Origin: Diprion similis
Taxonomy: Eukaryota > Arthropoda > Insecta > Hymenoptera > Diprionidae
Assembly: GCF_021155765.1 (NCBI RefSeq)
Contig: NC_060115.1
Span: 13,682,493 to 13,746,492 of the forward strand
Direction of reading: 5' to 3'
Length of the DNA stretch: 64,000 nt
Numbering within the stretch: position 1 is the first letter of the stretch; every line of letters begins with the position of its first letter. A program made the position numbers and the translations under genes. Positions 24,446 through 59,462 of the stretch are shown here, one piece after another. Under the pieces are notes generated by a model. That model was given only the letters and a program-made list of their open reading frames with translations, was not told the DNA's origin and ran no database searches.

Positions 24446-24998
24446 CATAGACTTATAGAGATAGACTCCGCGCTCCTTGCACCGAGTTGAAGCCCAACGT
24501 AGAAAGAGAGGGCAACAGCGGGAGTCCGACCTCTCACTTTAATCGGCGACTTGGTGGGGGGAAACAGCGTGTCTATGTACGCACCACGGCGTCCACTCCC
24601 CTCTCGTGAGTTCTTACAACTCGCGTACTGTTTTGGGTCTTATATTATTGATATCGTGCAAAAATAATTGTAGTGAGAAAATAAAATCGAATTTCAAACA
24701 AACAATGGTAAGGCGGTGCTGTATATGCAACGTGCAAGCCACAATATATTCGGACATTTCTTGATACAATTTATATAGTGACTATAATATGACTGCTGCT
24801 ATTCTCATTCTTTTTTTAAATACACACCTACGCTAATCTACTTCCGTCTTCTTCTTCTTCTTCCAGATGGCCTATTAATACCTAGTCCTATCTTGATATC
24901 TACCTCCCCGCTTGCCTTATTGCTTTTGGCGCTGCTCCGGCTGCTCCCCACTCTTTCGTCCGTGCAAGAGAGAGGTCGGACTCCCCCTGTTGCCCTCT
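24446..24998 (+). mobile_element. Transposon X, left 553 bp (cut by E1)
   Basis: Begins CATAGACTTATAGAGATAGA next to GTATAAAA. At 24966-24998 it contains the inverted complement of 24503-24535, i.e. the inner part of its other terminal repeat, and then E1 starts. The outer 65 bp of that terminal repeat are at 52007-52071. Reassembled length is about 614 bp with TIRs near 95 bp and an 8-bp duplication. The CA start and 8-bp TSD suit the P superfamily (hAT is the alternative). No coding capacity. Confidence 0.8.
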
Positions 24999-25594
24999 TG
25001 TAACGAATTTAATAAATTGAAGTGTAAGATTAAAATTATAAAATATACTGTCAAATTAATAATGAAATAAAATAAACATATAAAAAGGAATGAATGTATG
25101 TATAAATAAAAATACAAATAAATATAAATGAAAGTATAAATAAATATAAATAAAAATATAAAGAAGTATAAATAAAAATATAAATAAATATAAATAAAAA
25201 GATAGCAACACAAAATTAATAATAAATAATTAAAAAGAACGATAAAATGCTGAATAAAAATCCCTTTTAGGCGATCACTTATCTTTTTTTGATTGGATTT
25301 GTGCGTTATCGTTTGGCGATCGTCTTTTAGTCGGTCCTTGATCCTTTATTAAAAAATATATACATATATATCCCAACAGGGTCGACGAAAGAAATAAATA
25401 ATGTAAATAATTATTAAAATCACAGCAGAAGAAAAAGTAAAAGAATTTGCTTGGCCAAGCATAGATATAATGTCTTATTTCTGTGACGTTTGCGGACCGA
25501 CTGTCCGATAGCACGAACCCAACGTCTCGCCAGTGCCGCACATATACACCTCAAAATAGCGCTACATATGTGTATATACATACAGGTTCTTACA
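24999..25594 (-). repeat. 3' LTR of E1
   Basis: 596 bp, CA/TG ends. Differs from the other three E LTRs at two places by eye (near 25094 and 25130). Confidence 0.9.
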
Positions 25595-26070
25595 TTCCCC
25601 CGCCAATTTTGATGACCAGGTTGCTATGCAATTAATTTCATCAAAATTCTACATATCTACATACTAAATTTTAAAATTAATACATATAAATATTATATTA
25701 GTTTCTATTTACATTTTCCCATTTTTAGTAATAAAGTAAATCGATTAAACTTGCTGTATAATGCAACCAATTTTTTAGGTCTTTCAAAATTTTCGTCGAG
25801 CTCAAATTCAATTTTAATCCTAAATTACAATGTCTTCCTCGACGGTTTTCTTGATTAACACTGCGTCACATACTACGTATAGCCTATTTATCATTATGAA
25901 CATGTTTGCATCGTCATACGGCATAAGTTTACCTTGTCTGGATAAAAATTATGAAAATCTCATACATCACATTTTACGCTATTCTATTTACAATATTTAC
26001 AAATTCTTTTAGCATTGAACAGTATAGAACTTCTCAATAAGGGATTAGCGAAGTCAAATATCTATCTATA

Positions 26071-26105
<35 letters not shown>
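25595..26105 (-). other. 3' untranslated region of E1
   Basis: About 510 bp between pol and the LTR. It contains a long T run on plus (A run in the element) next to the pol stop, and a TTCCCCCGCC polypurine complement at the LTR edge. No env ORF. Confidence 0.7.
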
Positions 26106-29100
26106 TCAAGTCGATTGGTAGTATCTACGCAGACTCATTCGATTATATATTCCTATTACCATGGAGTTGTCATTTATATCAGCTAATTTATAAGCATTGT
26201 CGTTTATTTTTTCTATAATATTGTAAGGTCCTTTATACAGATGAAAAAATTTATGCGTAGTTTTATTTAGAGCTGATGATGGGTATGGCACATGTAATAA
26301 TACTTTATCGCCTACATTTAAGATTATAGATGATTTTGATTTTTGTTGGCGTTTTCTTTGTTCAAAGTTTTTTTTGAGATTTTCATTTGCTAAAAAAATC
26401 TTTATTTCGTGTTTTTCTTCGATCATTTCTGGAAATTTAATTATTTGTCTAACTTTACTATATACTTGTTCTCCAAAATGCAATTCATAAGGTACATATC
26501 CTGTGCTATGGTGGGTAGTTAAATTTAAAAAATTTTCAATTTCTTTTACACTCTTGGCCCATTTTGTATGTTTATCAGAACAAAGCGTACGAAATAATCT
26601 TCCAATCTCTCGCATAACTCTCTCAGTTGGGTTAGACTGAGGATGACGTATAGAAGAGTAACAAACCTTAACATTTAATTTTTCCAATTCTACTTTCCAT
26701 TTGTCGGCCGTAAATTGTGTGCCATTGTCAGATAATATTCTTTTTGGTTTCCCAACGTTCACAAAATAATCATTAATTAACCTATTTAGCGCAGATATGG
26801 TAGTTGCTCTTTTTAAAGTATATATTTGACAGTATTTAGAAAAAGCGTCTATCGCGACTAGAAGATATTGTACCCCACCTATAGATCTTGGCAATGGACC
26901 ATAAAAATCAACCGTCAACAGTTCGTTCGGCTTTTCAGCAAGCACTCTCATAAATTCACCTTGCATACTATATGATAAAACTTTAACTCGCTGACACAAA
27001 TCACAAGACTGCACGTATTTTTTGATATGATCTTTCATTTTACGCCAATAATAATATGTACTAATGTATTGAAATGTTTTATATACTCCCATATGACCTA
27101 TTTTTTCATGAACAGACTTGACCAATAATCTTACCAAACAATCTGGAATAACTAAACACCAATATTTACCATGGGGTGATTTATAAAATAAAATGTCATT
27201 TTTGAGTTTATACGATACATTATGATTTGCTAATTCAGATTTACACGATACTATAATTTTATTCAACTGTGGGTCATCTATTTGCAAATGTTTTATATTT
27301 TTCAGTTCTCTAAGTAAAGATACATCAATTTCTATTGCTTTTGACTTTATAACTTCTAATCGGACATCTATTCTATTGATCAAAATTTCATTCAAATTTG
27401 CAATTAGTATTCTATTGGTTTCAGGTTCAGCTTGTTTACCATCTATATTTCTACTAAAAAAATCAGCTACTAGATTGTCTTCGCCTGTACAGTGTTTAAT
27501 TTCAAATGTATATTCTTGGAGTAGTAAACTCCAACGTATAAGTCGCATGCTTTGAAATTGAGCAGTTTTTAAAAATGTTAGTGCGTGATGATCAGTGATT
27601 ATTAGAAATGGACATCCTATCAGATAAATTCTAAACTTTATTACTGCAAATACTATAGCAAGTAATTCTTTTTCTGTTGTATTATAATTAAGTTCGGCTT
27701 TCTTTAAACATCTACTTACTAACGATATTATTCTATGATCTCCCGCGGAATCTATTTGATACAGAATACCACTTATTCCGAGATTGCTGGCATCAGTTTG
27801 TACACGGAATTCGGTATTCGGAATGTAGTGATTTAACGTAACATACTTTAAAAACATCTCTTTCAGCTTATTAAAGGCTTTTGCATGCTGGCTTTTCCAT
27901 TCCCAGTGAACATTATCTTTTAAAAGGTTACGAAGCGGTGTTACTTGATTTGCATATCTAATACTAAATTGCCTGTAATAATTACATACACCTAAAAATT
28001 GTTGAAGTTGTTTTTTATTAGTAGGAGCCGGAAATTTCTGTATTACTTCTAACTTTTCTGGCTTTGGATATACGCCAGTGGGTGTAATTATAAAACCTAA
28101 AAACGAAATCGAATCCCTACATAACAATGTTTTCGTTAAACGGATAGTGAAATTGTGTTGCATCAAACGGCTAAATACTAAATTTAAATGTTGCATATGA
28201 GAATCAAAATCAGGAGACGCAATAAGCAAGTCATCTATGTAACAAGTCAGAAAAGCAGAATATTCATTACCAATTGCTAAATTAAGTGCACGAATGAACC
28301 CACTTCCTGCCGTTTTAAGACCGAAAGGTATCCTACAAAATTGATATACAGTACCATTATGAACAAAAGCAGTAAATTGACGAGAATTTTTCTCAAGGGG
28401 AATTTGCCAATATCCGTGTGTTAAATCTGTTGTCGTCATAATTTTAACACCATGATGTTTTCTCATAAGTTCTTCAATCAACGGCGGTGACTCATTATCA
28501 GCTTCAATAATATTATTTAAATGACGGGCATCTAAACAAATTCTCACTCCACCTTCTTTTTTAGGTACGATCCGAAGTGGATTACAAAAAGGGCTAATAG
28601 AACGTTCTATTATTCCTTCTTGGATCATATTTTGTATCTCTAAATCCACAGCTTCTCTATATTTTAACGGTACGGGGTACGATCGTTTCATAAATGGTCT
28701 ATCAGTTGTAAGTTTGATTGAATGTTCATAAATTTTAGCACAGCCTGGTTTATCAGAAAACAGGTGCTCATATTGACATAACAATTTTTCAAGAACTACT
28801 CTTTGCTCACCGTTCAGACCCATAAGACTTGTCACGATCGTTCGGACATCCTCACAAAAACTTTGATCATTATTCTTACGTATAATTGCTCTACTAAAAC
28901 AATTCAAAGATTCCTCAATGAAATTATCTTCACACAAATTATAATCCTCTTTTAAAATTTGACCATTCCAATCACTTTGATTTATATCATCAATTACTAA
29001 TGCATCAAATTCATCAATTTCATCACAATCAATAGTTACATTTTCTATTTCTAAATGGACATTTTCATTAATTTTTTCTACAACGATATTATAATTTTCT

Positions 29101-29951
29101 TCAATACGACACACGTCATCATTATCTATCTCTTTCTCTATGCTCCTCCTCTCATCATTAATATTCATAATGTTTAAATCATTTTTACATTTTACAGAAA
29201 TATTTTCACATACATTTTCATATTGTTTGACATTATTTATCACGTTATTGCTCACGATTGTCATATTATCATCATTGTTTTCATAAACTTTCGAAACGAC
29301 TATATTATCAATATCAAATCGATTTCTATTATCTAATTTGATTGGGTAATTATTGCATTTTATGTTAACAATTTGTATATACGTTTTTTGATCCCATGCA
29401 AATGATTTTAGCTGTTCTGAAGATTCCCGACCGTACGAGCAGAACGACGGTGCAACGAGCGTTCCATTTATTTCAATAGTTTTGCATCCATAATCTAACA
29501 AGACTCTATTTATGAACAACCAATCATTACCAAAAATAATATCATTTACTAAATGTGGTACGATTAAAAAGACCGTACGTATAATTTTGTCTCCTATACT
29601 AACATCTACAAGTATTTGTCGCCTGACTGGAGTAGTTTTTTGTCCTATAGCCGATAATACTAATACATTACTAACAGGAAGTTCATTTAAATCATGATTG
29701 TTTTTTAAGTATTTATAAAATTTTTCCGACATGCAAGTTATTTGGCTTCCGGTATCAATCAAAGCTGAAACTTGATTTTTTAAAATAACAACATGTATGT
29801 GCGGTCCCTTAGATAAGTGGTTTTCTGTATCTTGATTCTTTGCTATATACGGATTATCATTCATATCATTTACAAGGTCCTTAGCTAAATTTATATAGTC
29901 ACAACACGATGCGGGACCCACTCGCAACGCGTTGTTATTTAGTTTAAATGT
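26106..29951 (-). CDS. pol: Pol polyprotein of E1 (PR-RT-RNase H-IN)
   Basis: 1273 codons from the first usable start and open slightly further to the frameshift site; identical in translation to the E2 protein. Protease has ALIDTGSQIT at about residues 55-64. A 200-residue acidic, Asn-rich linker follows. RT: CLDARHLN, TTDLTHGYWQIPL and YIDD at about 563-566. RNase H begins near QTDAS (about 711). Integrase has HEKIGHMG with CDLC, then TVDFYGP, LSDNGTQF and NPTERVMRE giving D, D and E. No lesions; with intact gag this copy should be able to make all its proteins. Confidence 0.92.
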   Translation of the reverse strand, partial: TFKLNNNALRVGPASCCDYINLAKDLVNDMNDNPYIAKNQDTENHLSKGPHIHVVILKNQVSALIDTGSQITCMSEKFYKYLKNNHDLNELPVSNVLVLSAIGQKTTPVRRQILVDVSIGDKIIRTVFLIVPHLVNDIIFGNDWLFINRVLLDYGCKTIEINGTLVAPSFCSYGRESSEQLKSFAWDQKTYIQIVNIKCNNYPIKLDNRNRFDIDNIVVSKVYENNDDNMTIVSNNVINNVKQYENVCENISVKCKNDLNIMNINDERRSIEKEIDNDDVCRIEENYNIVVEKINENVHLEIENVTIDCDEIDEFDALVIDDINQSDWNGQILKEDYNLCEDNFIEESLNCFSRAIIRKNNDQSFCEDVRTIVTSLMGLNGEQRVVLEKLLCQYEHLFSDKPGCAKIYEHSIKLTTDRPFMKRSYPVPLKYREAVDLEIQNMIQEGIIERSISPFCNPLRIVPKKEGGVRICLDARHLNNIIEADNESPPLIEELMRKHHGVKIMTTTDLTHGYWQIPLEKNSRQFTAFVHNGTVYQFCRIPFGLKTAGSGFIRALNLAIGNEYSAFLTCYIDDLLIASPDFDSHMQHLNLVFSRLMQHNFTIRLTKTLLCRDSISFLGFIITPTGVYPKPEKLEVIQKFPAPTNKKQLQQFLGVCNYYRQFSIRYANQVTPLRNLLKDNVHWEWKSQHAKAFNKLKEMFLKYVTLNHYIPNTEFRVQTDASNLGISGILYQIDSAGDHRIISLVSRCLKKAELNYNTTEKELLAIVFAVIKFRIYLIGCPFLIITDHHALTFLKTAQFQSMRLIRWSLLLQEYTFEIKHCTGEDNLVADFFSRNIDGKQAEPETNRILIANLNEILINRIDVRLEVIKSKAIEIDVSLLRELKNIKHLQIDDPQLNKIIVSCKSELANHNVSYKLKNDILFYKSPHGKYWCLVIPDCLVRLLVKSVHEKIGHMGVYKTFQYISTYYYWRKMKDHIKKYVQSCDLCQRVKVLSYSMQGEFMRVLAEKPNELLTVDFYGPLPRSIGGVQYLLVAIDAFSKYCQIYTLKRATTISALNRLINDYFVNVGKPKRILSDNGTQFTADKWKVELEKLNVKVCYSSIRHPQSNPTERVMREIGRLFRTLCSDKHTKWAKSVKEIENFLNLTTHHSTGYVPYELHFGEQVYSKVRQIIKFPEMIEEKHEIKIFLANENLKKNFEQRKRQQKSKSSIILNVGDKVLLHVPYPSSALNKTTHKFFHLYKGPYNIIEKINDNAYKLADINDNSMVIGIYNRMSLRRYYQST

Positions 29952-31141
29952 TTATTTAGCACATTATTTACGCCTTGTTGTCCCATAACTTGATTATTTG
30001 TATTTAATAATGGAGGTGGTGGATAGCTAAAATTAGGTAATACTATTTGATTATTTGCAGATGTTGAGAAATTATTCGAACTTTGCCCATTTGACATTAC
30101 ATTGTTTGTATTCGGATTTTGCGGAATATTCTGGGTATAATTTTGGCAATTGAAGTATGATTGAGGAATTGTTTGGTAATTAGCAGGTTGATAATTTGTA
30201 TCTTGACTATTATTATGTTTATATGTTGTGTTTTTAAAATTTTGAGATTGAGTTATAGAATTAGTAATATTTTGATTTTGACGTCTTTCATTGTCTCGTT
30301 CTTGATACGTACTATCTAAATGCGATAAAGTCTGTTCTATTTGTTTCGTATCAGAAAAATTTACTGTTGCCAATATATCGCGAACTCTGTTCGGCAATTG
30401 TTGAACAATTGTGTAATTAATTTCAAATACATCTAATTTTGGCGTAAAGTATTTAGCTTCAACAACTTGCTTGAAAAAATACATTTGCAATGATCCATCT
30501 TGTGATTTGTATTTTCGAGAACTCCACTTGTTTTTTGCCTTTACTTGTATAGGAATCGAGTAAAATTTTTCCAGAAATGCTCTCTTAAAAACATCATAAT
30601 TTTCGATTTGCTGCTTAATTGAATCCCACCACAATCTAGCTCTACCTTTTAATTTATTTTCTATAATTCCTAATTTCCATTGACCAACAATATTTTTTAA
30701 ATTAAAATAGCTCTCCATATTATTTAAAAATTCTATCGGATTTGAAGTTTCTTCGTCATAAAATTCAGGAGTATTTATCTCGATATGAGTTCTTTGCAAA
30801 CTAGCTACCAATCCACTTACCAATGTTTCATCATTATTTACTGTATTTGTTTGTTGTGGACGAAACGTTTCTAGTATTTCCCGTTGCTCTCGATTTTGCG
30901 TTTTCAATATTTGAATCTCCCGTGCTAATTCTTCGTTTCGTGTTTGCTGACTTTGTAGCTGAACCACGCATTCTCTTAATCCAGATAGACTCGCTAATTC
31001 CTCCTTAAGACGTTCCAACTGTTCTTCCATGTTCATATTTATTGTAGGTTTTTCTGAGCTCGCCTTTGTCTCTGTCCTCGTCGCTATCGGTGAATGTACA
31101 ATTTTGGACCTGGTTTTAATGGTCGAACGATTAGCCATCAA
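29939..31141 (-). CDS. gag: Gag of E1
   Basis: 400 codons. N-terminal basic TRSK segment, a predicted coiled coil at about 35-100 (Glu/Leu/Gln heptads), a capsid-like core with NPIEFLNNMESYF, KGRARLWWD and FLEKFYSIPIQ, and a 120-residue Asn/Gln/Tyr/Pro-rich tail. No zinc knuckle, unlike most gypsy Gags. Stop TAA lies at 29939-29941, just after the slip site. Confidence 0.88.
   Translation of the reverse strand: MMANRSTIKTRSKIVHSPIATRTETKASSEKPTINMNMEEQLERLKEELASLSGLRECVVQLQSQQTRNEELAREIQILKTQNREQREILETFRPQQTNTVNNDETLVSGLVASLQRTHIEINTPEFYDEETSNPIEFLNNMESYFNLKNIVGQWKLGIIENKLKGRARLWWDSIKQQIENYDVFKRAFLEKFYSIPIQVKAKNKWSSRKYKSQDGSLQMYFFKQVVEAKYFTPKLDVFEINYTIVQQLPNRVRDILATVNFSDTKQIEQTLSHLDSTYQERDNERRQNQNITNSITQSQNFKNTTYKHNNSQDTNYQPANYQTIPQSYFNCQNYTQNIPQNPNTNNVMSNGQSSNNFSTSANNQIVLPNFSYPPPPLLNTNNQVMGQQGVNNVLNKHLN
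29942..29948 (-). promoter_or_regulatory. -1 ribosomal frameshift site T TTA AAC (E1)
   Basis: Minus-strand codons CAT TTA AAC TAA at the gag end; a -1 slip enters pol. Same site as in E2 (53985-53991), where the downstream stem is described. Confidence 0.8.
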
Positions 31142-31249
31142 TATATGTTAAATTTATTTTACGTAATTTTCCTGCATTTCAACGCCATAAAACAATTAAC
31201 ATAAAAACGAAAATCACAAATATATATATAAAAAGATAAAGAGACTTTT

Positions 31250-31261
31250 GTTCGGGCGCCA
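31250..31261 (-). other. Primer binding site of E1 (tRNA-Lys type)
   Basis: TGGCGCCCGAAC on the minus strand, 4 nt inside the 5' LTR; complementary to the 3' end of tRNA-Lys(UUU). Confidence 0.85.
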
Positions 31262-31265
31262 ATTT

Positions 31266-31861
31266 TGTAACGAATTTAATAAATTGAAGTGTAAGATTAA
31301 AATTATAAAATATACTGTCAAATTAATAATGAAATAAAATAAACATATAAAAAGAAATGAATGTATGTATAAATAAAAATACAAATAAATATAAATAAAA
31401 GTATAAATAAATATAAATAAAAATATAAAGAAGTATAAATAAAAATATAAATAAATATAAATAAAAAGATAGCAACACAAAATTAATAATAAATAATTAA
31501 AAAGAACGATAAAATGCTGAATAAAAATCCCTTTTAGGCGATCACTTATCTTTTTTTGATTGGATTTGTGCGTTATCGTTTGGCGATCGTCTTTTAGTCG
31601 GTCCTTGATCCTTTATTAAAAAATATATATATATATATCCCAACAGGGTCGACGAAAGAAATAAATAATGTAAATAATTATTAAAATCACAGCAGAAGAA
31701 AAAGTAAAAGAATTTGCTTGGCCAAGCATAGATATAATGTCTTATTTCTGTGACGTTTGCGGACCGACTGTCCGATAGCACGAACCCAACGTCTCGCCAG
31801 TGCCGCACATATACACCTCAAAATAGCGCTACATATGTGTATATACATACAGGTTCTTACA
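31266..31861 (-). repeat. 5' LTR of E1
   Basis: 596 bp. Differs from the other E LTRs by T for C in the TATA-rich repeat near 31632. Confidence 0.9.
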
Positions 31862-33561
31862 ACATTGTAAATGCACCTTGACAGGCATTACTGCTAACAA
31901 GCCATCAAAGAATGCCGATGTTCGGATGGAAGTGCTGTGTGGCAGGATTTGATCCGGCGATTAAACACGTCAAGAAACGACCTTTGAATGGTGAAAAACG
32001 AATCGAAGTGACTGAATCATTGGCAACTGCTTCGGCTACCATTTGGCGCAGAAATTTTGCTAGAGATCATATGGATATGTATGACGGTGAGCCTCCGAAC
32101 CTTTACAGGGCAGCGACTTTGCGAAAAGGAAAGCAGGAGAGACGGGATAAATTTTCAAAAGTGAAAGGGACGTGTGCCATTTCCAGTTTAAATAATATGA
32201 AATATACCGACTACGCAGGTTCTATACACGCTCTAAGTCACGATCCTTTTTTCGTACACCATTGGACCACCACACAAATAGCGGTGTATATAGATCACCA
32301 CGACGTCGTAGATATCGATGCTACCGGTTCATTAATAAAGAAATTTCTCTTACCAAATGGTGAACAATGTCCGCACATTTATCTGTACCAGGCACTTGTG
32401 GATACCGGGACCTACAAAATGCCGGTATTTCAAATGTTGAGCGCCGCCCAGAACTTAAATGCCATTCAGTATTGGCTTTGCGAATTTCTGAGAATCGGCG
32501 AGAGACACAAATCCGGGTTCCCCCTACCACGAACAGTGGTATGCGACTTTGATAAAGCAGTACTTAATGCCATTGCCAAAGCATTTGGTTAAAACGCGAA
32601 TCTCAAGGCTTACTTGTCGACATGCTCTACTCTTGAAAGAAGCCGAAATTCAGATTCCTAATTGTTTTATACGTTTAGATATTTGCCATTATATGCACTT
32701 TTTGTCACGATGGAAATTTTTTTCAGCACTACAAAATCCCACAGTAAAAAATTTTTATCGTTCTGCCTTCGCATTACTAACAAAGCAAACAGTTTTTGCA
32801 CAATTTGTAGATTTAGCAAAAAGCATCGCTATTTTGTCCCTCAGTGAAGATATCGGAAAGAACAACCTGGGAGAGGAAGTGCCAGCTGAACGCGCACGCT
32901 GTATGATTACTGGAAAGATCAAAGGTATCGATGATTTACAAATCCCAGAAGAACTTCCTGATGATAACGGTAATTGTATTCACGAGCATGAAACTTCGTT
33001 AGACGATTGTAGCATCGTGTCCTGGGCCCATGGACTATTAGATGAATGTCGCCATACGGTAGCGTCGTCGAGTACGGGTGATCAGCCGAACCCTTATTAT
33101 GTCCCGGAAATCAGCAAAAAATTGAAAACTTTATTATACTATTTTCCCTTATATACGGGCGTGATGATTGGTGTTTTCGGATACGGGGAAGTAAATATAA
33201 GCTCTGCACCTGTCGAGTCGGAAATGAATGACGTGAAGCACGTTATGTTGCGCAACGAATCCCGACCAATAAGGGCAGACAAATATGTCGCTACGCATTT
33301 GTTGTCGTTCGAAGGCAGAGCAAAGCTAGCTGTTGCCTCACAGGAATGGGCAATGCAGGATGACAGTGCAAAAAAAGATGCATCCTGTTCCATCCAGAGC
33401 GTAAAACAATCACCGACGAGGTTGACTCCGATTCTTTTTAACGATGACGAAGAATTGGTTAATATGATGGTACCGGAAAATATACCAAATGCGATGAGTT
33501 CGACTCCAATTGACGATATGAATACGGTTGTACCTCAAAATATAGCAAACACTGACGACTA
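31862..33561 (+). pseudogene. C-terminal half of transposase-like gene T
   Basis: Reads in frame from the ACAT flank of E1 (CKCTLTG...), shifts frame near 31950, and runs to TAA at 32590-32592. About 20 codons later it shifts again into the frame that ends in the 76-bp repeat. Motifs: KKRPLNGEKR, PPNLYRAATLRKGKQER, YIDHHDVVDIDATGS, PRTVVCDFDKAVLNAI, PNCFIRLDICHYMHFLSRW and SAPVESEMNDVKH. IDAT, VCDF and VESE look like the D, D and E of an RNase H-like (DDE) transposase. I do not assign a superfamily. The N-terminal half is at 58932-59462 on the minus strand. One nonsense and two frameshift lesions in this half. Confidence 0.65.
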
Positions 33562-33637
33562 TTTAACGATCAAACGAACTTACCTGTTGTGAAGTTCGAT
33601 CGTAATTATATGTAGAGTCTCGTTTGAGATGATTACA
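33562..33637 (+). repeat. 76-bp inverted repeat, left arm (end of DIRS-like C)
   Basis: Perfect inverted match to 33851-33926. The last 40 bp also resemble, in direct orientation, 33927-33963 (GAGTCTCGTTT...GATTACATCGTAG). Terminal and internal complementary repeats of this kind are the hallmark of DIRS elements. Confidence 0.8.
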
Positions 33638-34126: not shown

Positions 34127-35038
34127 TTATGCGAACACGGTCGCTGCAAACTCTTTTCTGCCCGACTTAATCGGCCGATTATAATATTTTGCGAATACCT
34201 GTGAATCCTCAGACCAACCCGCGGTATTCCTTATCGCACTGATATCTAAACCCTTTGCTAAGGCCGCCGACGTAGACGCGTGCCTTGTACTGTATGCCGT
34301 AAACTCGGGACCTATGCCACTCTTCGCCAACACTGATCGGATCCATCGACTTATTGTTTGTGTACTTGCCGATCTAAAGGGCCTTCTTGATGTGATTAAC
34401 ACATTATTACAATCGCCTTTAAGCGGTTTCGTTATTTCCAAATACCTTTTCAACGTGCTCGCTATGCACAGCCTGGGCTGTTCACGAAAGTACGGCAGCA
34501 ACAAAAGCAGCTGAAAAGCCCCGGGGCGCGACGTTTTTACAATGTCCGAGATCTTTATCTCGAAGCCCTGTGCCGAATGGAAAATATTATCGAGTCTCAT
34601 AAGCGAGAAGGTCTGCATTCGATGAGCCGTACCCAAGGCTAACAGCGTAACTAATCTCTCCGACAACTGTTGAATGCTCAACGATTCTAGTGGGTATAAG
34701 TTCGCAATGAACGCAAGTACTATACCGACATCCCATGTTTCGTCGTATCGAGGTTTCATTGGTCTAAGCCGAAAAATACCCTTGAAAAATCTACTGATAA
34801 CCCGATCGTTAGTCACGTCGTTCGCTGATATTAATGAAATTGCTGATCGCGTCGAGTTTAATGTACCATAGGAGGCTCCTAGACTAAATCTTTTCTGTAA
34901 AAATTCGAGGACGCCGTTCGCGCTCGCTTCGTAAATGTCCGTTTCCGTCTCGTGACAGAAATTCACCCATAGTCTAATAGATCCCGCGTACTGCTTCCAC
35001 GTACTCTCGGCGAGTGAGGCCAACAACGTCTCGATCAC
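34127..35038 (-). CDS. Tyrosine recombinase of DIRS-like element C
   Basis: 303 codons, intact. It would integrate a circular DNA copy by site-specific recombination. An N-terminal SAM-like helical domain (STWKQYAGSIRLWVNFC) is followed by the catalytic domain. Visible residues: Arg in TAHRMQTF, the YSTRHASTSAA block carrying the second Arg, and AGWSEDSQVFAKYYNR with the C-terminal Tyr nucleophile. The block is normally H-S-T-R; here the His is Tyr (TAC), which may weaken catalysis. The start is a GTG-like position inside the end of the RT ORF, so the two frames overlap; an upstream start or re-initiation is possible. Confidence 0.8.
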   Translation of the reverse strand: MIETLLASLAESTWKQYAGSIRLWVNFCHETETDIYEASANGVLEFLQKRFSLGASYGTLNSTRSAISLISANDVTNDRVISRFFKGIFRLRPMKPRYDETWDVGIVLAFIANLYPLESLSIQQLSERLVTLLALGTAHRMQTFSLMRLDNIFHSAQGFEIKISDIVKTSRPGAFQLLLLLPYFREQPRLCIASTLKRYLEITKPLKGDCNNVLITSRRPFRSASTQTISRWIRSVLAKSGIGPEFTAYSTRHASTSAALAKGLDISAIRNTAGWSEDSQVFAKYYNRPIKSGRKEFAATVFA

Positions 35039-38013: not shown

Positions 38014-38822
38014 TACGAGTGCAAGGGTAGGTCGGAGAGATTTTTGTGAAAGGGAAAAGTTCACGTACTCGCCTAGCAGAACTTAGCACAATTCGTGGAT
38101 TTTCGAAATTTTGAAAATTTCGGAAATTTGAAAGTCAGCCGGGATAAAAATTCATCTTTACGAGTGCAAGTGTAGGTCGGAGTCATTTTTGTGAGAGGGA
38201 AAAGTTCACGTACTCACTTAGCACAACTCAGCACAATTCGCGGATTTTTGAAATTTTGAAAATTTCGGAAATTTGAAAGTCAGCCGGAATAAAAATTCAT
38301 CTTTACGAGTGCAAGTGTAGGTCGAAGATATTTTTGTGAGAGGGAAAAGTTCACGTACTCGCTTAGCACAACTCAGCACAATTCGCGGATTTTCGAAATT
38401 TTGAAAATTTCGGAAATTTGAAAGGTAGACGGAATAAAAATTCATTCTTAAGAGTGCAAGGGTAGGTCGGAGGGGTTTTTGTAAGAGGGAAAAGTTTAGG
38501 TACTCCCCTAGCACAACTCATCCCAATTCGTTAATTTTATTTAAATTTTTTTTTTTTTTTTTCTCTACCCCCAAGTACAGATTTTTGAAAAAACTGAATA
38601 CGGCACAAGGTAGCACAAATCAAGCACAATCTAGCACAATTTTTATTTTGCCGATTTTCCAAAAGTGCTGGGCTTATCACATTTTCGATTTTTAAGATTT
38701 TTTCGAAAACCGTTGAAGTTAAGAAAGGCGCGTAAACGGCACAAGTTAGCACACGTTTAGCACAACTTGGCACAATATTTATTATCACAATTTTCAAAAA
38801 GTGCTGGGCCAACTTCACACAC
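38014..38822 (+). repeat. 145-bp tandem repeat family, copy 1, with unique tail
   Basis: Units begin TACGAGTGCAAG at 38014, 38159 and 38304, and with a variant at 38449: exactly 145 bp apart. After a T-rich stretch comes a 250-bp tail with many (T)AGCACAA/GGCACAA heptamers, ending GTGCTGGGCCAACTTCACAC. The tail is nearly identical to 60150-60404. Confidence 0.85.
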
Positions 38823-41775: not shown

Positions 41776-41777
41776 TA

Positions 41778-50299: not shown

Positions 50300-50501
50300 C
50301 CCGAGTGAAACAATTTACATCGGGGAAAAATAGCCAAATAAATTAAAGTCAAAATTCCAATAAACTAGTATTACCGTACCGCATAAAGCAGTGTTTCTTT
50401 TTTTTCTTGCCGATATTGATTCCCTTTTCACGTAGGTTAAATTCTGTCGCTAACGTAATTTGATTATTGTTTGTGGAAAATACCGATTGTAGTTCGCCAT
50501 T

Positions 50502-52006
50502 ATGTCTCAGTCAGGTAATAATAACGATTCATCCGGAACCTTTCATTTAATCTCGTGGTTAAGCCATTTAACCGCAAATGAGATCGATCAGCTGTTACTC
50601 GCGGAGTCTCTCAGCACGACCGGCAATACTCACGATAAACGCTGGCGTGTAGTGCGATATCACGAGCGTAATAAGGGTAGACAGGTACCGTGGAATCCCC
50701 AAACGGACGAGCTACCACCTCCCGTACCAGAAGTACGAGCAGACGGCATACCTATTCCGAATTCTTGCTCAATGCCGACCAATACGACGTATTCTATAAT
50801 TACGACTCCGAGTCCGGTCTATTATTCTACAGCAATCCCGAGTCATGCCGACGGACGTCAACCCGCCGCGACGGTTCCAATGCGTTCACGCCTCGACCCG
50901 TTACATGTAAACACGACCCCTCTCCAAGTAAAGTTTCCCGAAAGCTATTACAGCCCTTTTCCTGAACGATCCCGCGTACCGACACCGATCTCACCAATCG
51001 AACGTAGTTTCGGAGCGTCGACTGATTACCATTCGTTTACGCCAATTCCTACCGAGCTTGGCCTCCCGAGTTACGCGCAGCCGCTATCCGCGCCACAACC
51101 CGCGAACCCCGCGCGCCCGTCCGTAATCCCGTACTGGGATACGCTGTCCCCGATTGCCGGGCCAGCTTCCGTACCTCCTTCCGCTGCCGCATATCCTACC
51201 GTACCGCCGCCGGTATATTCCGGCATATCGAGCGCTCTTCCGGATGTACCGACTTCGCTCCCGTCTGGGAGAGTTGCTTATCCCGTTCATCCCGTAATAT
51301 CGAGCGCTTCCGCTACCCTCCCGATTCCTCCCGGTTTCGCGTCTACCGCGGTACCGCCCGCGCGGTTCATTCTACCAGACTCAGTTAGCCTTCCCGCACA
51401 TACCTTGCCGCTAACAGGAGTAAATTCCGCGACTTTGCCAGTTACTGAAAATAATCGCCTTGGCTTCCGTGCGCACGTAAATGAACGACCCCGTGATTTA
51501 GACGATATCGTACGTAAATGGTCAATCAAATTCGTCGGCAAGCGAGATAGCAGTGCCGAGGAATTCCTTAAACGACTAGACGAATGCCGACAGGGCAGTC
51601 ACTTATCCGATACCGACCTATTAGAAGCCATACCGTTCCTACTTACCGACAAAGCGTTACAGTGGTACCGCTTGCACCGTGCCGCCTGGACCAACTGGTC
51701 AGCGTTTGTCACGGATTTCCGCACGCGCTTTGACGGAATCAATTTTCAGTACCGAGTGCGAGACGAGGCTCGCCGAAGAACGCAAGGCTCTGAAGAGCCC
51801 GTAGCCGACTTCCTACTAAACTTGAGGAGTTTATTCAATTACGTCACTTCGCCTTTTTCCGTGAACGAACAGTTAGAGATCGCGTTTTCGAACCTGCTCC
51901 CGGAATACCGCCTCCTAATTCACCGCTACAGCTTCGATAGTTTCGAGGGACTAGAGAGAATGGGCGAATTATTAGAATCTTCCAAGGCCCTGAGCCACTT
52001 TTATAC
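50502..52006 (+). pseudogene. gag: N-terminal part of D Gag (cut by transposon X)
   Basis: About 500 codons from a well-placed ATG (GCCATTATG). Residues 1-310 are Pro/Ser/Tyr-rich. Residues 320-495 form a recognisable retrotransposon gag core (DDIVRKWSIKFVGKRDSS, EFLKRLDECRQG, ALQWYRLHRAAW, VADFLLNLRSLF, LLPEYRLLIHRY). The frame runs into X at 52007 and stops a few codons later. Its zinc-knuckle half is at 23949-24437 on the other strand. Confidence 0.85.
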
Positions 52007-52071
52007 CATAGACTTATAGAGATAGACTGCGCGCTCCGTGCCCCGAGTTGAAGCCCAACGTAGAAAGAGAG
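52007..52071 (+). mobile_element. Transposon X, outer 65 bp of its other terminal repeat
   Basis: CATAGACTTATAGAGATAGA start adjacent to TTTTATAC (complement GTATAAAA). Matches 24446-24510 with about four differences, then is cut by the E2 LTR after AGAG. Confidence 0.85.
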
Positions 52072-52667
52072 TGTAAGAACCTGTATGTATATACACATAT
52101 GTAGCGCTATTTTGAGGTGTATATGTGCGGCACTGGCGAGGCGTTGGGTTCGTGCTATCGGACAGTCGGTCCGCAAACGTCACAGAAATAAGACATTATA
52201 TCTATGCTTGGCCAAGCAAATTCTTTTACTTTTTCTTCTGCTGTGATTTTAATAATTATTTACATTATTTATTTCTTTCGTCGACCCTGTTGGGATATAT
52301 ATGTATATATTTTTTAATAAAGGATCAAGGACCGACTAAAAGACGATCGCCAAACGATAACGCACAAATCCAATCAAAAAAAGATAAGTGATCGCCTAAA
52401 AGGGATTTTTATTCAGCATTTTATCGTTCTTTTTAATTATTTATTATTAATTTTGTGTTGCTATCTTTTTATTTATATTTATTTATATTTTTATTTATAC
52501 TTCTTTATATTTTTATTTATATTTATTTATACTTTTATTTATATTTATTTGTATTTTTATTTATACATACATTCATTTCTTTTTATATGTTTATTTTATT
52601 TCATTATTAATTTGACAGTATATTTTATAATTTTAATCTTACACTTCAATTTATTAAATTCGTTACA
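52072..52667 (+). repeat. 5' LTR of E2
   Basis: 596 bp; private difference GAGGCGTTGG where the other three read GAGACGTTGG (52137-52146). Confidence 0.9.
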
Positions 52668-52671
52668 AAAT

Positions 52672-52683
52672 TGGCGCCCGAAC
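52672..52683 (+). other. Primer binding site of E2 (tRNA-Lys type)
   Basis: TGGCGCCCGAAC, 4 nt after the LTR, as in E1. Confidence 0.85.
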
Positions 52684-52791
52684 AAAAGTCTCTTTATCTT
52701 TTTATATATATATTTGTGATTTTCGTTTTTATGTTAATTGTTTTATGGCGTTGAAATGCAGGAAAATTACGTAAAATAAATTTAACATATA

Positions 52792-53994
52792 TTGATGGCT
52801 AATCGTTCGACCATTAAAACCAGGTCCAAAATTGTACATTCACCGATAGCGACGAGGACAGAGACAAAGGCGAGCTCAGAAAAACCTACAATAAATATGA
52901 ACATGGAAGAACAGTTGGAACGTCTTAAGGAGGAATTAGCGAGTCTATCTGGATTAAGAGAATGCGTGGTTCAGCTACAAAGTCAGCAAACACGAAACGA
53001 AGAATTAGCACGGGAGATTCAAATATTGAAAACGCAAAATCGAGAGCAACGGGAAATACTAGAAACGTTTCGTCCACAACAAACAAATACAGTAAATAAT
53101 GATGAAACATTGGTAAGTGGATTGGTAGCTAGTTTGCAAAGAACTCATATCGAGATAAATACTCCTGAATTTTATGACGAAGAAACTTCAAATCCGATAG
53201 AATTTTTAAATAATATGGAGAGCTATTTTAATTTAAAAAATATTGTTGGTCAATGGAAATTAGGAATTATAGAAAATAAATTAAAAGGTAGAGCTAGATT
53301 GTGGTGGGATTCAATTAAGCAGCAAATCGAAAATTATGATGTTTTTAAGAGAGCATTTCTGGAAAAATTTTACTCGATTCCTATACAAGTAAAGGCAAAA
53401 AACAAGTGGAGTTCTCGAAAATACAAATCACAAGATGGATCATTGCAAATGTATTTTTTCAAGCAAGTTGTTGAAGCTAAATACTTTACGCCAAAATTAG
53501 ATGTATTTGAAATTAATTACACAATTGTTCAACAATTGCCGAACAGAGTTCGCGATATATTGGCAACAGTAAATTTTTCTGATACGAAACAAATAGAACA
53601 GACTTTATCGCATTTAGATAGTACGTATCAAGAACGAGACAATGAAAGACGTCAAAATCAAAATATTACTAATTCTATAACTCAATCTCAAAATTTTAAA
53701 AACACAACATATAAACATAATAATAGTCAAGATACAAATTATCAACCTGCTAATTACCAAACAATTCCTCAATCATACTTCAATTGCCAAAATTATACCC
53801 AGAATATTCCGCAAAATCCGAATACAAACAATGTAATGTCAAATGGGCAAAGTTCGAATAATTTCTCAACATCTGCAAATAATCAAATAGTATTACCTAA
53901 TTTTAGCTATCCACCACCTCCATTATTAAATACAAATAATCAAGTTATGGGACAACAAGGCGTAAATAATGTGCTAAATAAACATTTAAACTAA
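52792..53994 (+). CDS. gag: Gag of E2
   Basis: 400 codons, same protein as E1 Gag: coiled coil, capsid-like core and Asn/Gln-rich tail without zinc knuckle. The ATG used is the first of two in tandem across the codon boundary (TTGATGGCT), 110 nt after the primer site. Confidence 0.88.
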   Translation: MMANRSTIKTRSKIVHSPIATRTETKASSEKPTINMNMEEQLERLKEELASLSGLRECVVQLQSQQTRNEELAREIQILKTQNREQREILETFRPQQTNTVNNDETLVSGLVASLQRTHIEINTPEFYDEETSNPIEFLNNMESYFNLKNIVGQWKLGIIENKLKGRARLWWDSIKQQIENYDVFKRAFLEKFYSIPIQVKAKNKWSSRKYKSQDGSLQMYFFKQVVEAKYFTPKLDVFEINYTIVQQLPNRVRDILATVNFSDTKQIEQTLSHLDSTYQERDNERRQNQNITNSITQSQNFKNTTYKHNNSQDTNYQPANYQTIPQSYFNCQNYTQNIPQNPNTNNVMSNGQSSNNFSTSANNQIVLPNFSYPPPPLLNTNNQVMGQQGVNNVLNKHLN

Positions 53995-56900
53995 ATAACA
54001 ACGCGTTGCGAGTGGGTCCCGCATCGTGTTGTGACTATATAAATTTAGCTAAGGACCTTGTAAATGATATGAATGATAATCCGTATATAGCAAAGAATCA
54101 AGATACAGAAAACCACTTATCTAAGGGACCGCACATACATGTTGTTATTTTAAAAAATCAAGTTTCAGCTTTGATTGATACCGGAAGCCAAATAACTTGC
54201 ATGTCGGAAAAATTTTATAAATACTTAAAAAACAATCATGATTTAAATGAACTTCCTGTTAGTAATGTATTAGTATTATCGGCTATAGGACAAAAAACTA
54301 CTCCAGTCAGGCGACAAATACTTGTAGATGTTAGTATAGGAGACAAAATTATACGTACGGTCTTTTTAATCGTACCACATTTAGTAAATGATATTATTTT
54401 TGGTAATGATTGGTTGTTCATAAATAGAGTCTTGTTAGATTATGGATGCAAAACTATTGAAATAAATGGAACGCTCGTTGCACCGTCGTTCTGCTCGTAC
54501 GGTCGGGAATCTTCAGAACAGCTAAAATCATTTGCATGGGATCAAAAAACGTATATACAAATTGTTAACATAAAATGCAATAATTACCCAATCAAATTAG
54601 ATAATAGAAATCGATTTGATATTGATAATATAGTCGTTTCGAAAGTTTATGAAAACAATGATGATAATATGACAATCGTGAGCAATAACGTGATAAATAA
54701 TGTCAAACAATATGAAAATGTATGTGAAAATATTTCTGTAAAATGTAAAAATGATTTAAACATTATGAATATTAATGATGAGAGGAGGAGCATAGAGAAA
54801 GAGATAGATAATGATGACGTGTGTCGTATTGAAGAAAATTATAATATCGTTGTAGAAAAAATTAATGAAAATGTCCATTTAGAAATAGAAAATGTAACTA
54901 TTGATTGTGATGAAATTGATGAATTTGATGCATTAGTAATTGATGATATAAATCAAAGTGATTGGAATGGTCAAATTTTAAAAGAGGATTATAATTTGTG
55001 TGAAGATAATTTCATTGAGGAATCTTTGAATTGTTTTAGTAGAGCAATTATACGTAAGAATAATGATCAAAGTTTTTGTGAGGATGTCCGAACGATCGTG
55101 ACAAGTCTTATGGGTCTGAACGGTGAGCAAAGAGTAGTTCTTGAAAAATTGTTATGTCAATATGAGCACCTGTTTTCTGATAAACCAGGCTGTGCTAAAA
55201 TTTATGAACATTCAATCAAACTTACAACTGATAGACCATTTATGAAACGATCGTACCCCGTACCGTTAAAATATAGAGAAGCTGTGGATTTAGAGATACA
55301 AAATATGATCCAAGAAGGAATAATAGAACGTTCTATTAGCCCTTTTTGTAATCCACTTCGGATCGTACCTAAAAAAGAAGGTGGAGTGAGAATTTGTTTA
55401 GATGCCCGTCATTTAAATAATATTATTGAAGCTGATAATGAGTCACCGCCGTTGATTGAAGAACTTATGAGAAAACATCATGGTGTTAAAATTATGACGA
55501 CAACAGATTTAACACACGGATATTGGCAAATTCCCCTTGAGAAAAATTCTCGTCAATTTACTGCTTTTGTTCATAATGGTACTGTATATCAATTTTGTAG
55601 GATACCTTTCGGTCTTAAAACGGCAGGAAGTGGGTTCATTCGTGCACTTAATTTAGCAATTGGTAATGAATATTCTGCTTTTCTGACTTGTTACATAGAT
55701 GACTTGCTTATTGCGTCTCCTGATTTTGATTCTCATATGCAACATTTAAATTTAGTATTTAGCCGTTTGATGCAACACAATTTCACTATCCGTTTAACGA
55801 AAACATTGTTATGTAGGGATTCGATTTCGTTTTTAGGTTTTATAATTACACCCACTGGCGTATATCCAAAGCCAGAAAAGTTAGAAGTAATACAGAAATT
55901 TCCGGCTCCTACTAATAAAAAACAACTTCAACAATTTTTAGGTGTATGTAATTATTACAGGCAATTTAGTATTAGATATGCAAATCAAGTAACACCGCTT
56001 CGTAACCTTTTAAAAGATAATGTTCACTGGGAATGGAAAAGCCAGCATGCAAAAGCCTTTAATAAGCTGAAAGAGATGTTTTTAAAGTATGTTACGTTAA
56101 ATCACTACATTCCGAATACCGAATTCCGTGTACAAACTGATGCCAGCAATCTCGGAATAAGTGGTATTCTGTATCAAATAGATTCCGCGGGAGATCATAG
56201 AATAATATCGTTAGTAAGTAGATGTTTAAAGAAAGCCGAACTTAATTATAATACAACAGAAAAAGAATTACTTGCTATAGTATTTGCAGTAATAAAGTTT
56301 AGAATTTATCTGATAGGATGTCCATTTCTAATAATCACTGATCATCACGCACTAACATTTTTAAAAACTGCTCAATTTCAAAGCATGCGACTTATACGTT
56401 GGAGTTTACTACTCCAAGAATATACATTTGAAATTAAACACTGTACAGGCGAAGACAATCTAGTAGCTGATTTTTTTAGTAGAAATATAGATGGTAAACA
56501 AGCTGAACCTGAAACCAATAGAATACTAATTGCAAATTTGAATGAAATTTTGATCAATAGAATAGATGTCCGATTAGAAGTTATAAAGTCAAAAGCAATA
56601 GAAATTGATGTATCTTTACTTAGAGAACTGAAAAATATAAAACATTTGCAAATAGATGACCCACAGTTGAATAAAATTATAGTATCGTGTAAATCTGAAT
56701 TAGCAAATCATAATGTATCGTATAAACTCAAAAATGACATTTTATTTTATAAATCACCCCATGGTAAATATTGGTGTTTAGTTATTCCAGATTGTTTGGT
56801 AAGATTATTGGTCAAGTCTGTTCATGAAAAAATAGGTCATATGGGAGTATATAAAACATTTCAATACATTAGTACATATTATTATTGGCGTAAAATGAAA

Positions 56901-57827
56901 GATCATATCAAAAAATACGTGCAGTCTTGTGATTTGTGTCAGCGAGTTAAAGTTTTATCATATAGTATGCAAGGTGAATTTATGAGAGTGCTTGCTGAAA
57001 AGCCGAACGAACTGTTGACGGTTGATTTTTATGGTCCATTGCCAAGATCTATAGGTGGGGTACAATATCTTCTAGTCGCGATAGACGCTTTTTCTAAATA
57101 CTGTCAAATATATACTTTAAAAAGAGCAACTACCATATCTGCGCTAAATAGGTTAATTAATGATTATTTTGTGAACGTTGGGAAACCAAAAAGAATATTA
57201 TCTGACAATGGCACACAATTTACGGCCGACAAATGGAAAGTAGAATTGGAAAAATTAAATGTTAAGGTTTGTTACTCTTCTATACGTCATCCTCAGTCTA
57301 ACCCAACTGAGAGAGTTATGCGAGAGATTGGAAGATTATTTCGTACGCTTTGTTCTGATAAACATACAAAATGGGCCAAGAGTGTAAAAGAAATTGAAAA
57401 TTTTTTAAATTTAACTACCCACCATAGCACAGGATATGTACCTTATGAATTGCATTTTGGAGAACAAGTATATAGTAAAGTTAGACAAATAATTAAATTT
57501 CCAGAAATGATCGAAGAAAAACACGAAATAAAGATTTTTTTAGCAAATGAAAATCTCAAAAAAAACTTTGAACAAAGAAAACGCCAACAAAAATCAAAAT
57601 CATCTATAATCTTAAATGTAGGCGATAAAGTATTATTACATGTGCCATACCCATCATCAGCTCTAAATAAAACTACGCATAAATTTTTTCATCTGTATAA
57701 AGGACCTTACAATATTATAGAAAAAATAAACGACAATGCTTATAAATTAGCTGATATAAATGACAACTCCATGGTAATAGGAATATATAATCGAATGAGT
57801 CTGCGTAGATACTACCAATCGACTTGA
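53982..57827 (+). CDS. pol: Pol polyprotein of E2 (PR-RT-RNase H-IN)
   Basis: Open from 53982 to TGA after 57825, in the -1 frame relative to gag; identical in translation to E1 Pol. DTG protease near 54177, YIDD near 55692-55703, integrase DDE residues near 57020, 57200 and 57310. The C-terminal GDKVLLHVPYP and FFHLYKGPYNIIEKI segments are the GPY/F-like end of gypsy integrase. Intact. Confidence 0.92.
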   Translation, partial: TFKLNNNALRVGPASCCDYINLAKDLVNDMNDNPYIAKNQDTENHLSKGPHIHVVILKNQVSALIDTGSQITCMSEKFYKYLKNNHDLNELPVSNVLVLSAIGQKTTPVRRQILVDVSIGDKIIRTVFLIVPHLVNDIIFGNDWLFINRVLLDYGCKTIEINGTLVAPSFCSYGRESSEQLKSFAWDQKTYIQIVNIKCNNYPIKLDNRNRFDIDNIVVSKVYENNDDNMTIVSNNVINNVKQYENVCENISVKCKNDLNIMNINDERRSIEKEIDNDDVCRIEENYNIVVEKINENVHLEIENVTIDCDEIDEFDALVIDDINQSDWNGQILKEDYNLCEDNFIEESLNCFSRAIIRKNNDQSFCEDVRTIVTSLMGLNGEQRVVLEKLLCQYEHLFSDKPGCAKIYEHSIKLTTDRPFMKRSYPVPLKYREAVDLEIQNMIQEGIIERSISPFCNPLRIVPKKEGGVRICLDARHLNNIIEADNESPPLIEELMRKHHGVKIMTTTDLTHGYWQIPLEKNSRQFTAFVHNGTVYQFCRIPFGLKTAGSGFIRALNLAIGNEYSAFLTCYIDDLLIASPDFDSHMQHLNLVFSRLMQHNFTIRLTKTLLCRDSISFLGFIITPTGVYPKPEKLEVIQKFPAPTNKKQLQQFLGVCNYYRQFSIRYANQVTPLRNLLKDNVHWEWKSQHAKAFNKLKEMFLKYVTLNHYIPNTEFRVQTDASNLGISGILYQIDSAGDHRIISLVSRCLKKAELNYNTTEKELLAIVFAVIKFRIYLIGCPFLIITDHHALTFLKTAQFQSMRLIRWSLLLQEYTFEIKHCTGEDNLVADFFSRNIDGKQAEPETNRILIANLNEILINRIDVRLEVIKSKAIEIDVSLLRELKNIKHLQIDDPQLNKIIVSCKSELANHNVSYKLKNDILFYKSPHGKYWCLVIPDCLVRLLVKSVHEKIGHMGVYKTFQYISTYYYWRKMKDHIKKYVQSCDLCQRVKVLSYSMQGEFMRVLAEKPNELLTVDFYGPLPRSIGGVQYLLVAIDAFSKYCQIYTLKRATTISALNRLINDYFVNVGKPKRILSDNGTQFTADKWKVELEKLNVKVCYSSIRHPQSNPTERVMREIGRLFRTLCSDKHTKWAKSVKEIENFLNLTTHHSTGYVPYELHFGEQVYSKVRQIIKFPEMIEEKHEIKIFLANENLKKNFEQRKRQQKSKSSIILNVGDKVLLHVPYPSSALNKTTHKFFHLYKGPYNIIEKINDNAYKLADINDNSMVIGIYNRMSLRRYYQST
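53985..53991 (+). promoter_or_regulatory. -1 ribosomal frameshift site T TTA AAC with nested stem (E2)
   Basis: Gag codons CAT TTA AAC TAA. Seven nt after the heptamer, CAACGCG (53999-54005) can pair, with one G-U, with CGTGTTG (54025-54031), and inside it TGCG (54007-54010) with CGCA (54020-54023). Position and spacing are those of known frameshift stimulators. Confidence 0.8.
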
Positions 57828-58335
57828 CTAAAAAAAAAAAAAAAAAAAAAAAAAAATTGTATAGATAGATATTTGACTTCGCTAATCCCTTATTGAGAAG
57901 TTCTATACTGTTCAATGCTAAAAGAATTTGTAAATATTGTAAATAGAATAGCGTAAAATGTGATGTATGAGATTTTCATAATTTTTATCCAGACAAGGTA
58001 AACTTATGCCGTATGACGATGCAAACATGTTCATAATGATAAATAGGCTATACGTAGTATGTGACGCAGTGTTAATCAAGAAAACCGTCGAGGAAGACAT
58101 TGTAATTTAGGATTAAAATTGAATTTGAGCTCGACGAAAATTTTGAAAGACCTAAAAAATTGGTTGCATTATACAGCAAGTTTAATCGATTTACTTTATT
58201 ACTAAAAATGGGAAAATGTAAATAGAAACTAATATAATATTTATATGTATTAATTTTAAAATTTAGTATGTAGATATGTAGAATTTTGATGAAATTAATT
58301 GCATAGCAACCTGGTCATCAAAATTGGCGGGGGAA
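57828..58335 (+). other. 3' untranslated region of E2
   Basis: A-run of about 25 next to the pol stop, AT-rich sequence, then a GGCGGGGGAA polypurine tract at the LTR edge. No ORF. Confidence 0.7.
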
Positions 58336-58931
58336 TGTAAGAACCTGTATGTATATACACATATGTAGCGCTATTTTGAGGTGTATATGTGCGGCACTGG
58401 CGAGACGTTGGGTTCGTGCTATCGGACAGTCGGTCCGCAAACGTCACAGAAATAAGACATTATATCTATGCTTGGCCAAGCAAATTCTTTTACTTTTTCT
58501 TCTGCTGTGATTTTAATAATTATTTACATTATTTATTTCTTTCGTCGACCCTGTTGGGATATATATGTATATATTTTTTAATAAAGGATCAAGGACCGAC
58601 TAAAAGACGATGGCCAAACGATAACGCACAAATCCAATCAAAAAAAGATAAGTGATCGCCTAAAAGGGATTTTTATTCAGCATTTTATCGTTCTTTTTAA
58701 TTATTTATTATTAATTTTGTGTTGCTATCTTTTTATTTATATTTATTTATATTTTTATTTATACTTCTTTATATTTTTATTTATATTTATTTATACTTTT
58801 ATTTATATTTATTTGTATTTTTATTTATACATACATTCATTTCTTTTTATATGTTTATTTTATTTCATTATTAATTTGACCGTATATTTTATAATTTTAA
58901 TCTTACACTTCAATTTATTAAATTCGTTACA
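58336..58931 (+). repeat. 3' LTR of E2
   Basis: 596 bp; private differences GATGGCC for GATCGCC near 58610 and GACCGTA for GACAGTA near 58880. Confidence 0.9.
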
Positions 58932-59462
58932 ATGTGGACACGATGCGTACACCGTAAGGTAAATTCCACTCTCAGATATCGTGCACCGTTTAAACATGAA
59001 GGGACACGGCAGTTTAGTTTCCTTCGATACGAGATCGAACACCGCATTTGTCCATCTACCACGACGCAAAGTGGAGAAGTTACGTTGGATCTTAGAGATA
59101 GACTTGTAAATAATTTTTTTACAATCAATATCGTGCCATATTTTGAGCGGTATCTTGATCAAAAATTTGATGTCTGTCTCTTTGTTCGTCCGATTAAAAG
59201 ATTCGTCATCGTCGATGGATGACGACGTTATAATATTTATTGGCCGCTGTAGATTGTGATACTGAAGAAGTTCATCATGAACGCCTTATCTGTTAACTAG
59301 TATTACAGTGTATATGTACTTCGGTGACATTGCTCCCTGTAATAATTCACTAATATCTGTATAGACATAAGCTTTGGGGGAAACGGGTCTTCCGTCATCA
59401 TTTAAAATATGTCTGTATTTCGGACTTCGAAGATGTTTCAACAATTCCTCTATGGGAGGCAT
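58932..59462 (-). pseudogene. N-terminal half of transposase-like gene T
   Basis: Minus-strand frame from ATG at 59462 (MPPIEELLKHLRSPKYRHIL...) to the E2 edge (SESGIYLTVYASCPHC), interrupted only by TAA at 59286-59288. At the edge, joining one copy of the ATGT/ACAT duplication to 31862 gives ...CPHC-KCTLTG... in the same frame, a Cys-rich turn expected inside one protein. So E2/E1 sequence interrupts T, and the two halves were later separated by inversion. Confidence 0.7.

Follow-up and report, generated by a model that had tools for sequence, protein, structure and literature searches.

Exchanged target duplications of two inverted LTR retrotransposons point to a 20-kb inversion in transposon-rich DNA

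The window, by which we mean the whole 64-kb stretch of DNA that was analysed, is C11:13,682,493-13,746,492 in an assembly of 269 Mb and 60 contigs, and its count of N is 0 over the full length. It contains two copies of one retrotransposon, E1 and E2, in opposite orientation. The copies, their flanks and the segment between them are as follows.

24995-24998, + strand: CTCT, half of the site A target duplication, left of E1
24999-31861 (6,863 bp), main ORFs on the - strand: E1, a putative full-length Ty3/gypsy-type LTR retrotransposon
24999-25594 and 31266-31861: LTRs of E1
26106-29927, - strand: pol-like ORF of E1
29939-31141, - strand: gag-like ORF of E1
31862-31865, + strand: ACAT, half of the site B target duplication, right of E1
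31862-52071 (20,210 bp): the segment that appears to be inverted
52068-52071, + strand: AGAG, other half of the site A target duplication, left of E2
52072-58931 (6,860 bp), main ORFs on the + strand: E2, an inverted copy of E1
52072-52667 and 58336-58931: LTRs of E2
52792-53994, + strand: gag-like ORF of E2
54006-57827, + strand: pol-like ORF of E2
58932-58935, + strand: ATGT, other half of the site B target duplication, right of E2

As inverted repeats, E1 and E2 are 99.87% identical across 6,864 aligned bp. They differ by six substitutions, all of which fall within the LTRs, and by a 3-base change in the length of a poly-T run (30 T vs 27 T), and they share ~5.5 kb free of any difference. 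The pol ORF (1,273 aa) has matches to reverse transcriptase (RT, residues 454-614), RNase H (703-806) and integrase (927-1096), all well above the cut-off, and to a protease (47-137) whose scores are only just below the curated cut-offs. The 400-aa gag-like ORF matches Arc_capsid_dom with 25.5 bits, below the cut-off of 27, and the best of the eight relatives found for the capsid protein belongs to Neodiprion virginianus, a pine sawfly (80% over 91%), which makes a related hymenopteran the probable host. Among ORFs of at least 80 aa, none located between pol and the 3' LTR is env-like. The order protease - RT - RNase H - integrase is that of the Ty3/gypsy LTR retrotransposons, and so are the 596-bp LTRs, which start with TGT and end with ACA and thus have the TG..CA ends of such elements, and the 4-bp target duplications. 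We noted no feature of E that is unusual for this group, and by its predicted domains and its ends E is classed as a Ty3/gypsy-type LTR retrotransposon.

The rearranged locus is transposon-rich DNA with no recognised host gene at stake. The 22 window ORFs that were scanned for domains, out of 40 listed ones of at least 130 aa, gave matches to mobile-element domains only, and no effect of the inversion on a host gene was found among them. Several other elements are visible in the window. Another gypsy-like element at 3722-8703 has identical 327-bp repeats at both ends and is for this reason probably a young insertion. Neighbouring ORFs on the - strand at 34127-36919 encode tyrosine recombinase and reverse transcriptase domains, which we take to be the combination found in DIRS-like elements. 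At 40741-41777, within the inverted segment, ~1 kb of DNA is 82% its own reverse complement and forms a large palindrome.

The flanks of E1 and E2 follow the order CTCT-E1-ACAT and AGAG-E2-ATGT on the + strand, which in the coding sense corresponds to ATGT..AGAG for E1 and AGAG..ATGT for E2. Neither element has a 4-bp target duplication of its own. When the 20,210 bp of 31862-52071 are inverted back, both duplications are restored. The initial annotation had given the flanks and coordinates exactly to the base, and its claim that inverting this segment restores both duplications was borne out by the flank comparison. In the window, two 4-bp flanks match at random in 0.53% of site pairs, and both crosswise tetranucleotide matches would arise by chance in ~2-3 cases in 100,000.

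A survey of target duplications in the family covered 16 further stretches with family LTRs and yielded 10 loci at which the outer flanks can be read on both sides, the count omitting five stretches that are truncated or one-sided (L017, L018, L019, L020 and L024). The 4-bp duplication is exact in eight of these 10 loci, one of which (C4:19.610 Mb) shares its 3' flank with a tandem-duplicated array on C4 and is not fully independent. At one locus, C10:1.905 Mb, the flanks agree at 3/4 bases, and at another, the C4 array itself, the outer flanks are mismatched, suggestive of a further recombination event between copies. Within the family, the mismatched flanks of E1 and E2 are unusual. Nevertheless, as the C4 array also has no matching flanks, duplications have been lost in other ways too.

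In the C4 array (C4:19,616,100-19,634,000; L010 and L011), a tandem duplication of 10,163 bp holds two family elements, which are identical over 7,738 bp. A large tandem array was also seen at C1:10,215,638-10,267,910 (L019), where family LTR matches recur six times with a spacing of 10,268 bp and each of the six is an inverted pair 27 bp apart.

Both target sites were found elsewhere in the genome free of E. At site A, E had entered a short transposon whose ends are CATAGACTTATAGAG and whose own target duplication of 8 bp is GTATAAAA. The parts of this transposon and of an older gypsy-like element are placed in the window as follows.

17629-24410, - strand: older gypsy-like element, RT, RNase H and other pol parts, interrupted by a LINE-like insertion
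24438-24445, + strand: GTATAAAA, half of the short transposon's 8-bp duplication
24446-24998, + strand: left part of the short transposon entered by E, with terminal inverted repeat CATAGACTTATAGAG
50493-52007, + strand: older gypsy-like element, gag part
51999-52006, - strand: GTATAAAA, other half of the short transposon's 8-bp duplication
52007-52071, - strand: right end of the short transposon, apparently moved away by the inversion

The two copies of GTATAAAA lie on opposite strands at 24438-24445 and 51999-52006, so that the breakpoints which separate the 4-bp duplications also separate a second, longer one. Ten copies of the short transposon, chosen from the best of 97 and 42 flank matches, were sampled, and all 10 align gaplessly and free of E across the restored junction A, with 120/120 bases in eight copies and 111 bases in two. 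Furthermore, the unique sequences on either side of the short transposon meet at C10:848 kb with one copy of GTATAAAA and no E. The paralogy to C10 (91-95%) spans kilobases on both sides of site A and takes in window segments 17627-18851 and 22383-24445, and then 52007 back to 48183. The older gypsy-like element has its gag and RT on one strand at C10; in the window, its gag is on the + strand and its pol on the - strand.

At site B, copies of the 800-base stretches that follow E1 and E2 on the right were both found, at ~97-98% identity, at C11 14.057 Mb. These copies lie back to back with an exact 4-base overlap, ACAT, at C11:14,057,359-362. A second E-free junction (~79-83%) was found at C2:1,006,386-389, where the overlap is again exactly the 4-bp target. 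All candidates of the site B flank searches were scored (5/5 and 3/3). The C11 paralog is collinear with the window from 60404 to 58927, then from 31862 to 33575 and then from 36851 to 38297, and across its empty site B runs an intact ORF of 441 aa, the halves of which were located in the window together with two sets of flanking repeats.

31863-32634, + strand: second half of the site B reading frame, as compared with the 441-aa C11 ORF
59471-58929, - strand: first half of the site B reading frame (first 181 residues), as compared with the 441-aa C11 ORF
37962-38824, + strand: 145-bp repeats, partner of 59730-60404
59730-60404, + strand: 145-bp repeats, partner of 37962-38824

The two halves of the reading frame are on opposite strands in the window, and the two sets of 145-bp repeats are direct to each other in the window and inverted in the C11 paralog. 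This paralog has another ORF next to its empty site B (L053:6391-8100, + strand; window counterpart 32903-33562), whose match to a ubiquitin hydrolase domain is weak and below the cut-off.

Present flank pairs joined without E, which the initial annotation had counted as evidence against its own reading, were looked for, and the opposite was found. In the 54 loci probed, probes made of the present pairs gave no spanning match free of E, whereas probes made of the restored pairs were spanned in 12 distinct places, 10 for site A and two for site B. In the genome-wide searches, the scored hits of the left and right flanks of E1 never lay near each other outside the window. The same was true of the scored hits of the E2 flanks, the nearest being ~85 kb apart and a weak match of 68%. 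For site A, 40/55 and 40/59 candidates were scored, and the absence of joined pairs holds for those. Each of the four flanks was found at 100% identity in one place in the genome searches, and only one arrangement is present in the assembly.

Taken together, the swapped duplications and the E-free restored junctions indicate that the order in the assembly is inverted with respect to the ancestor, and we accordingly read 31862-52071 as having been turned round since both copies of E inserted. Such an order is most simply explained by a crossover between E1 and E2, and the proposal of the initial annotation that the inversion arose by recombination between the inverted copies gains support from the E-free junctions at both sites. 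We infer that the flip took place in the animal rather than in the assembly, and that probably two independent insertions of E were followed by a homologous crossover that turned 20,210 bp around. Inverted repeats that are 99.87% identical offer ample homology for recombination. Two copies of E would have inserted separately and in opposite orientation, ~20 kb apart, into a transposon-rich stretch: copy A into the short inverted-repeat transposon, duplicating CTCT, and copy B into the repeated reading frame, duplicating ACAT. A homologous crossover between the two, within one chromatid or between sisters, would then have flipped the DNA in between. The resulting elements would be chimeras, with A's outer and B's inner end in E1 and the reverse in E2, and such chimeras would have their duplications swapped. 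The crossover may have occurred anywhere in E, most easily in the ~5.5 kb in which the copies do not differ. No marker separates A from B, and the chimeric nature of E1 and E2 is a prediction of this reading.

We also attempted to use the pairing of the LTRs as a test of the exchange. It turned out to be uninformative, because the within-element pairs differ at 3 sites each under the present and the restored pairing alike. All four LTRs are about equally diverged, with 2-4 differences per pair. A comparison with other family members shows derived bases at LTR sites 51, 90, 132 and 320 that occur in no LTR but the two outer ones, and shows that the family state is kept only by E1R at site 365 and only by E2L at site 527. 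Since sites 365 and 527 show all four combinations, the family state included, a repeat or back mutation or a conversion is needed to explain them. The interiors of E1 and E2 (25595-31265 and 52668-58335) have 0 substitutions in 5,668 bp. If changes fell evenly, the four private changes of the outer LTRs would all be in LTRs in ~9 cases in 10,000. This suggests gene conversion between the interiors, which is expected for recombining inverted repeats. An interior free of substitutions would also fit a repeat that the assembler collapsed and used twice.

A calibration in which the LTRs of the family change ~12 times faster than the interior, and which would make the homogenised interior insignificant, was considered and rejected. 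In the comparison of E1R with a C10 copy (L009, C10:72700-80800), all 14 of the 14 LTR substitutions fall in the 153 bp of LTR positions 375-527; elsewhere the two differ at 0/374 and 0/69 LTR positions and at 11/5,671 interior positions. Outside positions 375-527 LTRs and interior differ little, and the surplus of outer-LTR changes therefore stands. A U3 block that varies between lineages, as it does in the E family, has been described for crapaud in Podospora (PMC10787394). The U3 variant of E1 and E2 is absent from the other 10 of the 14 family LTRs aligned. The two elements that have this variant lie only 20 kb apart.

The initial annotation had itself allowed for an assembler flip or a polymorphic orientation. 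The chromosome might not be inverted at all if the assembler had crossed the loop between the inverted repeats in the wrong direction. A single wrong traversal yields exactly the picture observed, ~5.5 kb of E1 and E2 offer no difference by which to choose the path, and both the substitution-free interior and the private changes of the outer LTRs could reflect a collapsed repeat. However, the window is free of N, an assembly of 269 Mb in 60 contigs implies long reads that were probably longer than 6.9 kb, and the poly-T run of 30 vs 27 and the differences of the two copies in both their outer and their inner LTRs mean that one piece of sequence was not simply used twice. We regard a biological event as probable and an assembly flip as unlikely, given how contiguous the assembly is, that the window has no N and that the copies differ from each other at both of their ends. 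Pure coincidence, in which two insertions lost their duplications by mutation or trimming of their ends and the flanks happen to match crosswise, can draw on the existence of mutated duplications such as that at C10:1.905 Mb with its 3/4 bases. However, the odds of the tetranucleotides alone are ~2-3 in 100,000, and the paralogous E-free junctions would be left without an explanation; it is these empty sites that refute chance, whose probability we put at practically nil. Aberrant transposition by hybrid ends, a route of DNA transposons, was set aside.

Two further possibilities were considered. Two sister cDNAs of E might have inserted crosswise and simultaneously into two breaks, each linking one side of site A with one side of site B; the inversion would then have come with the insertion, and no homologous crossover would have been involved. 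The U3 variant exclusive to E1 and E2 among the 14 family LTRs aligned, the spacing of 20 kb, which is odd for two independent insertions, and the nearly equal divergence of the four LTRs (2-4 differences per pair), as a single event would give, all fit such an origin. However, it requires two coupled half-site integrations, and we know of no case of this kind for an LTR retrotransposon. Furthermore, insertions may also lie close together because of a shared preference for transposon-rich DNA, and the near-identity of E1 and E2 could also come from gene conversion, so that we find this origin highly improbable. We assign a similarly slight probability to an orientation that is polymorphic, where the inverted repeats recombine again and again and the assembly has caught one of two states. 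This would follow from inverted repeats of 6.86 kb at 99.87% identity, and a homogenised interior fits repeated exchange; against it stand the single arrangement in the assembly and the occurrence of each of the four flanks at one place with 100% identity. In a bolder reading, which we consider rather doubtful, E1 and E2 would be a live recombination pair that still exchanges sequence and flips the 20 kb, with both orientations coexisting, or, bolder still, a pair that arrived jointly by the crosswise integration of two sister cDNAs. If the pair were indeed live, continued exchange would have wiped out the differences of the interiors, while the outer LTRs kept theirs.

The reading that we prefer, a crossover between two separately inserted copies, has known parallels. 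In the Galileo inversions of Drosophila buzzatii, e.g. 2z3, copies of a transposable element lie in opposite orientation at both breakpoints with their duplications exchanged, the non-inverted state has one copy of each target, and both copies of the element were shown to be chimeric (PMC2775673). E1 and E2 resemble the account given there in that homologous copies in opposite orientation lie at two breakpoints and in that the target duplications are swapped between them. The single-copy targets were seen here in paralogous sites only (C11 and C2 for site B, C10 and 10 transposon copies for site A), whereas for Galileo they come from a real non-inverted chromosome (PMC2775673). The chimeric nature of the copies was established for Galileo (PMC2775673); for E1 and E2, in which no marker separates A from B and both LTR pairings are equal, it is a prediction. 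Moreover, Galileo is described as a DNA transposon of the P superfamily with 7-bp duplications (PMC2775673), whereas E is by its features an LTR retrotransposon with 4-bp duplications, and the segment between its copies is 20 kb long. Chimeric centromeric retrotransposons of maize CEN10 are complete and have mismatched target duplications (PMC4806543). E1 and E2 are like them full-length LTR retrotransposons in which mismatched flanks betray recombination between elements. The CEN10 account, as far as it bears on this point, concerns mismatched duplications as such (PMC4806543), whereas E1 and E2 present a reciprocal exchange between two sites together with both empty junctions. The literature on LTR-retrotransposon inversions with exchanged duplications led to Galileo and related work, and does not show the present case to be unpublished.

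In summary, E1 and E2 add a well-documented case to a type of event already known. They provide a base-precise record of a probable inversion mediated by an LTR retrotransposon, and since the junctions that preceded both insertions are still present elsewhere in this genome, the ancestral order can be read without a sister species. Searching any assembly for swapped target duplications together with paralogous empty sites could likewise reveal inversions or assembler flips.
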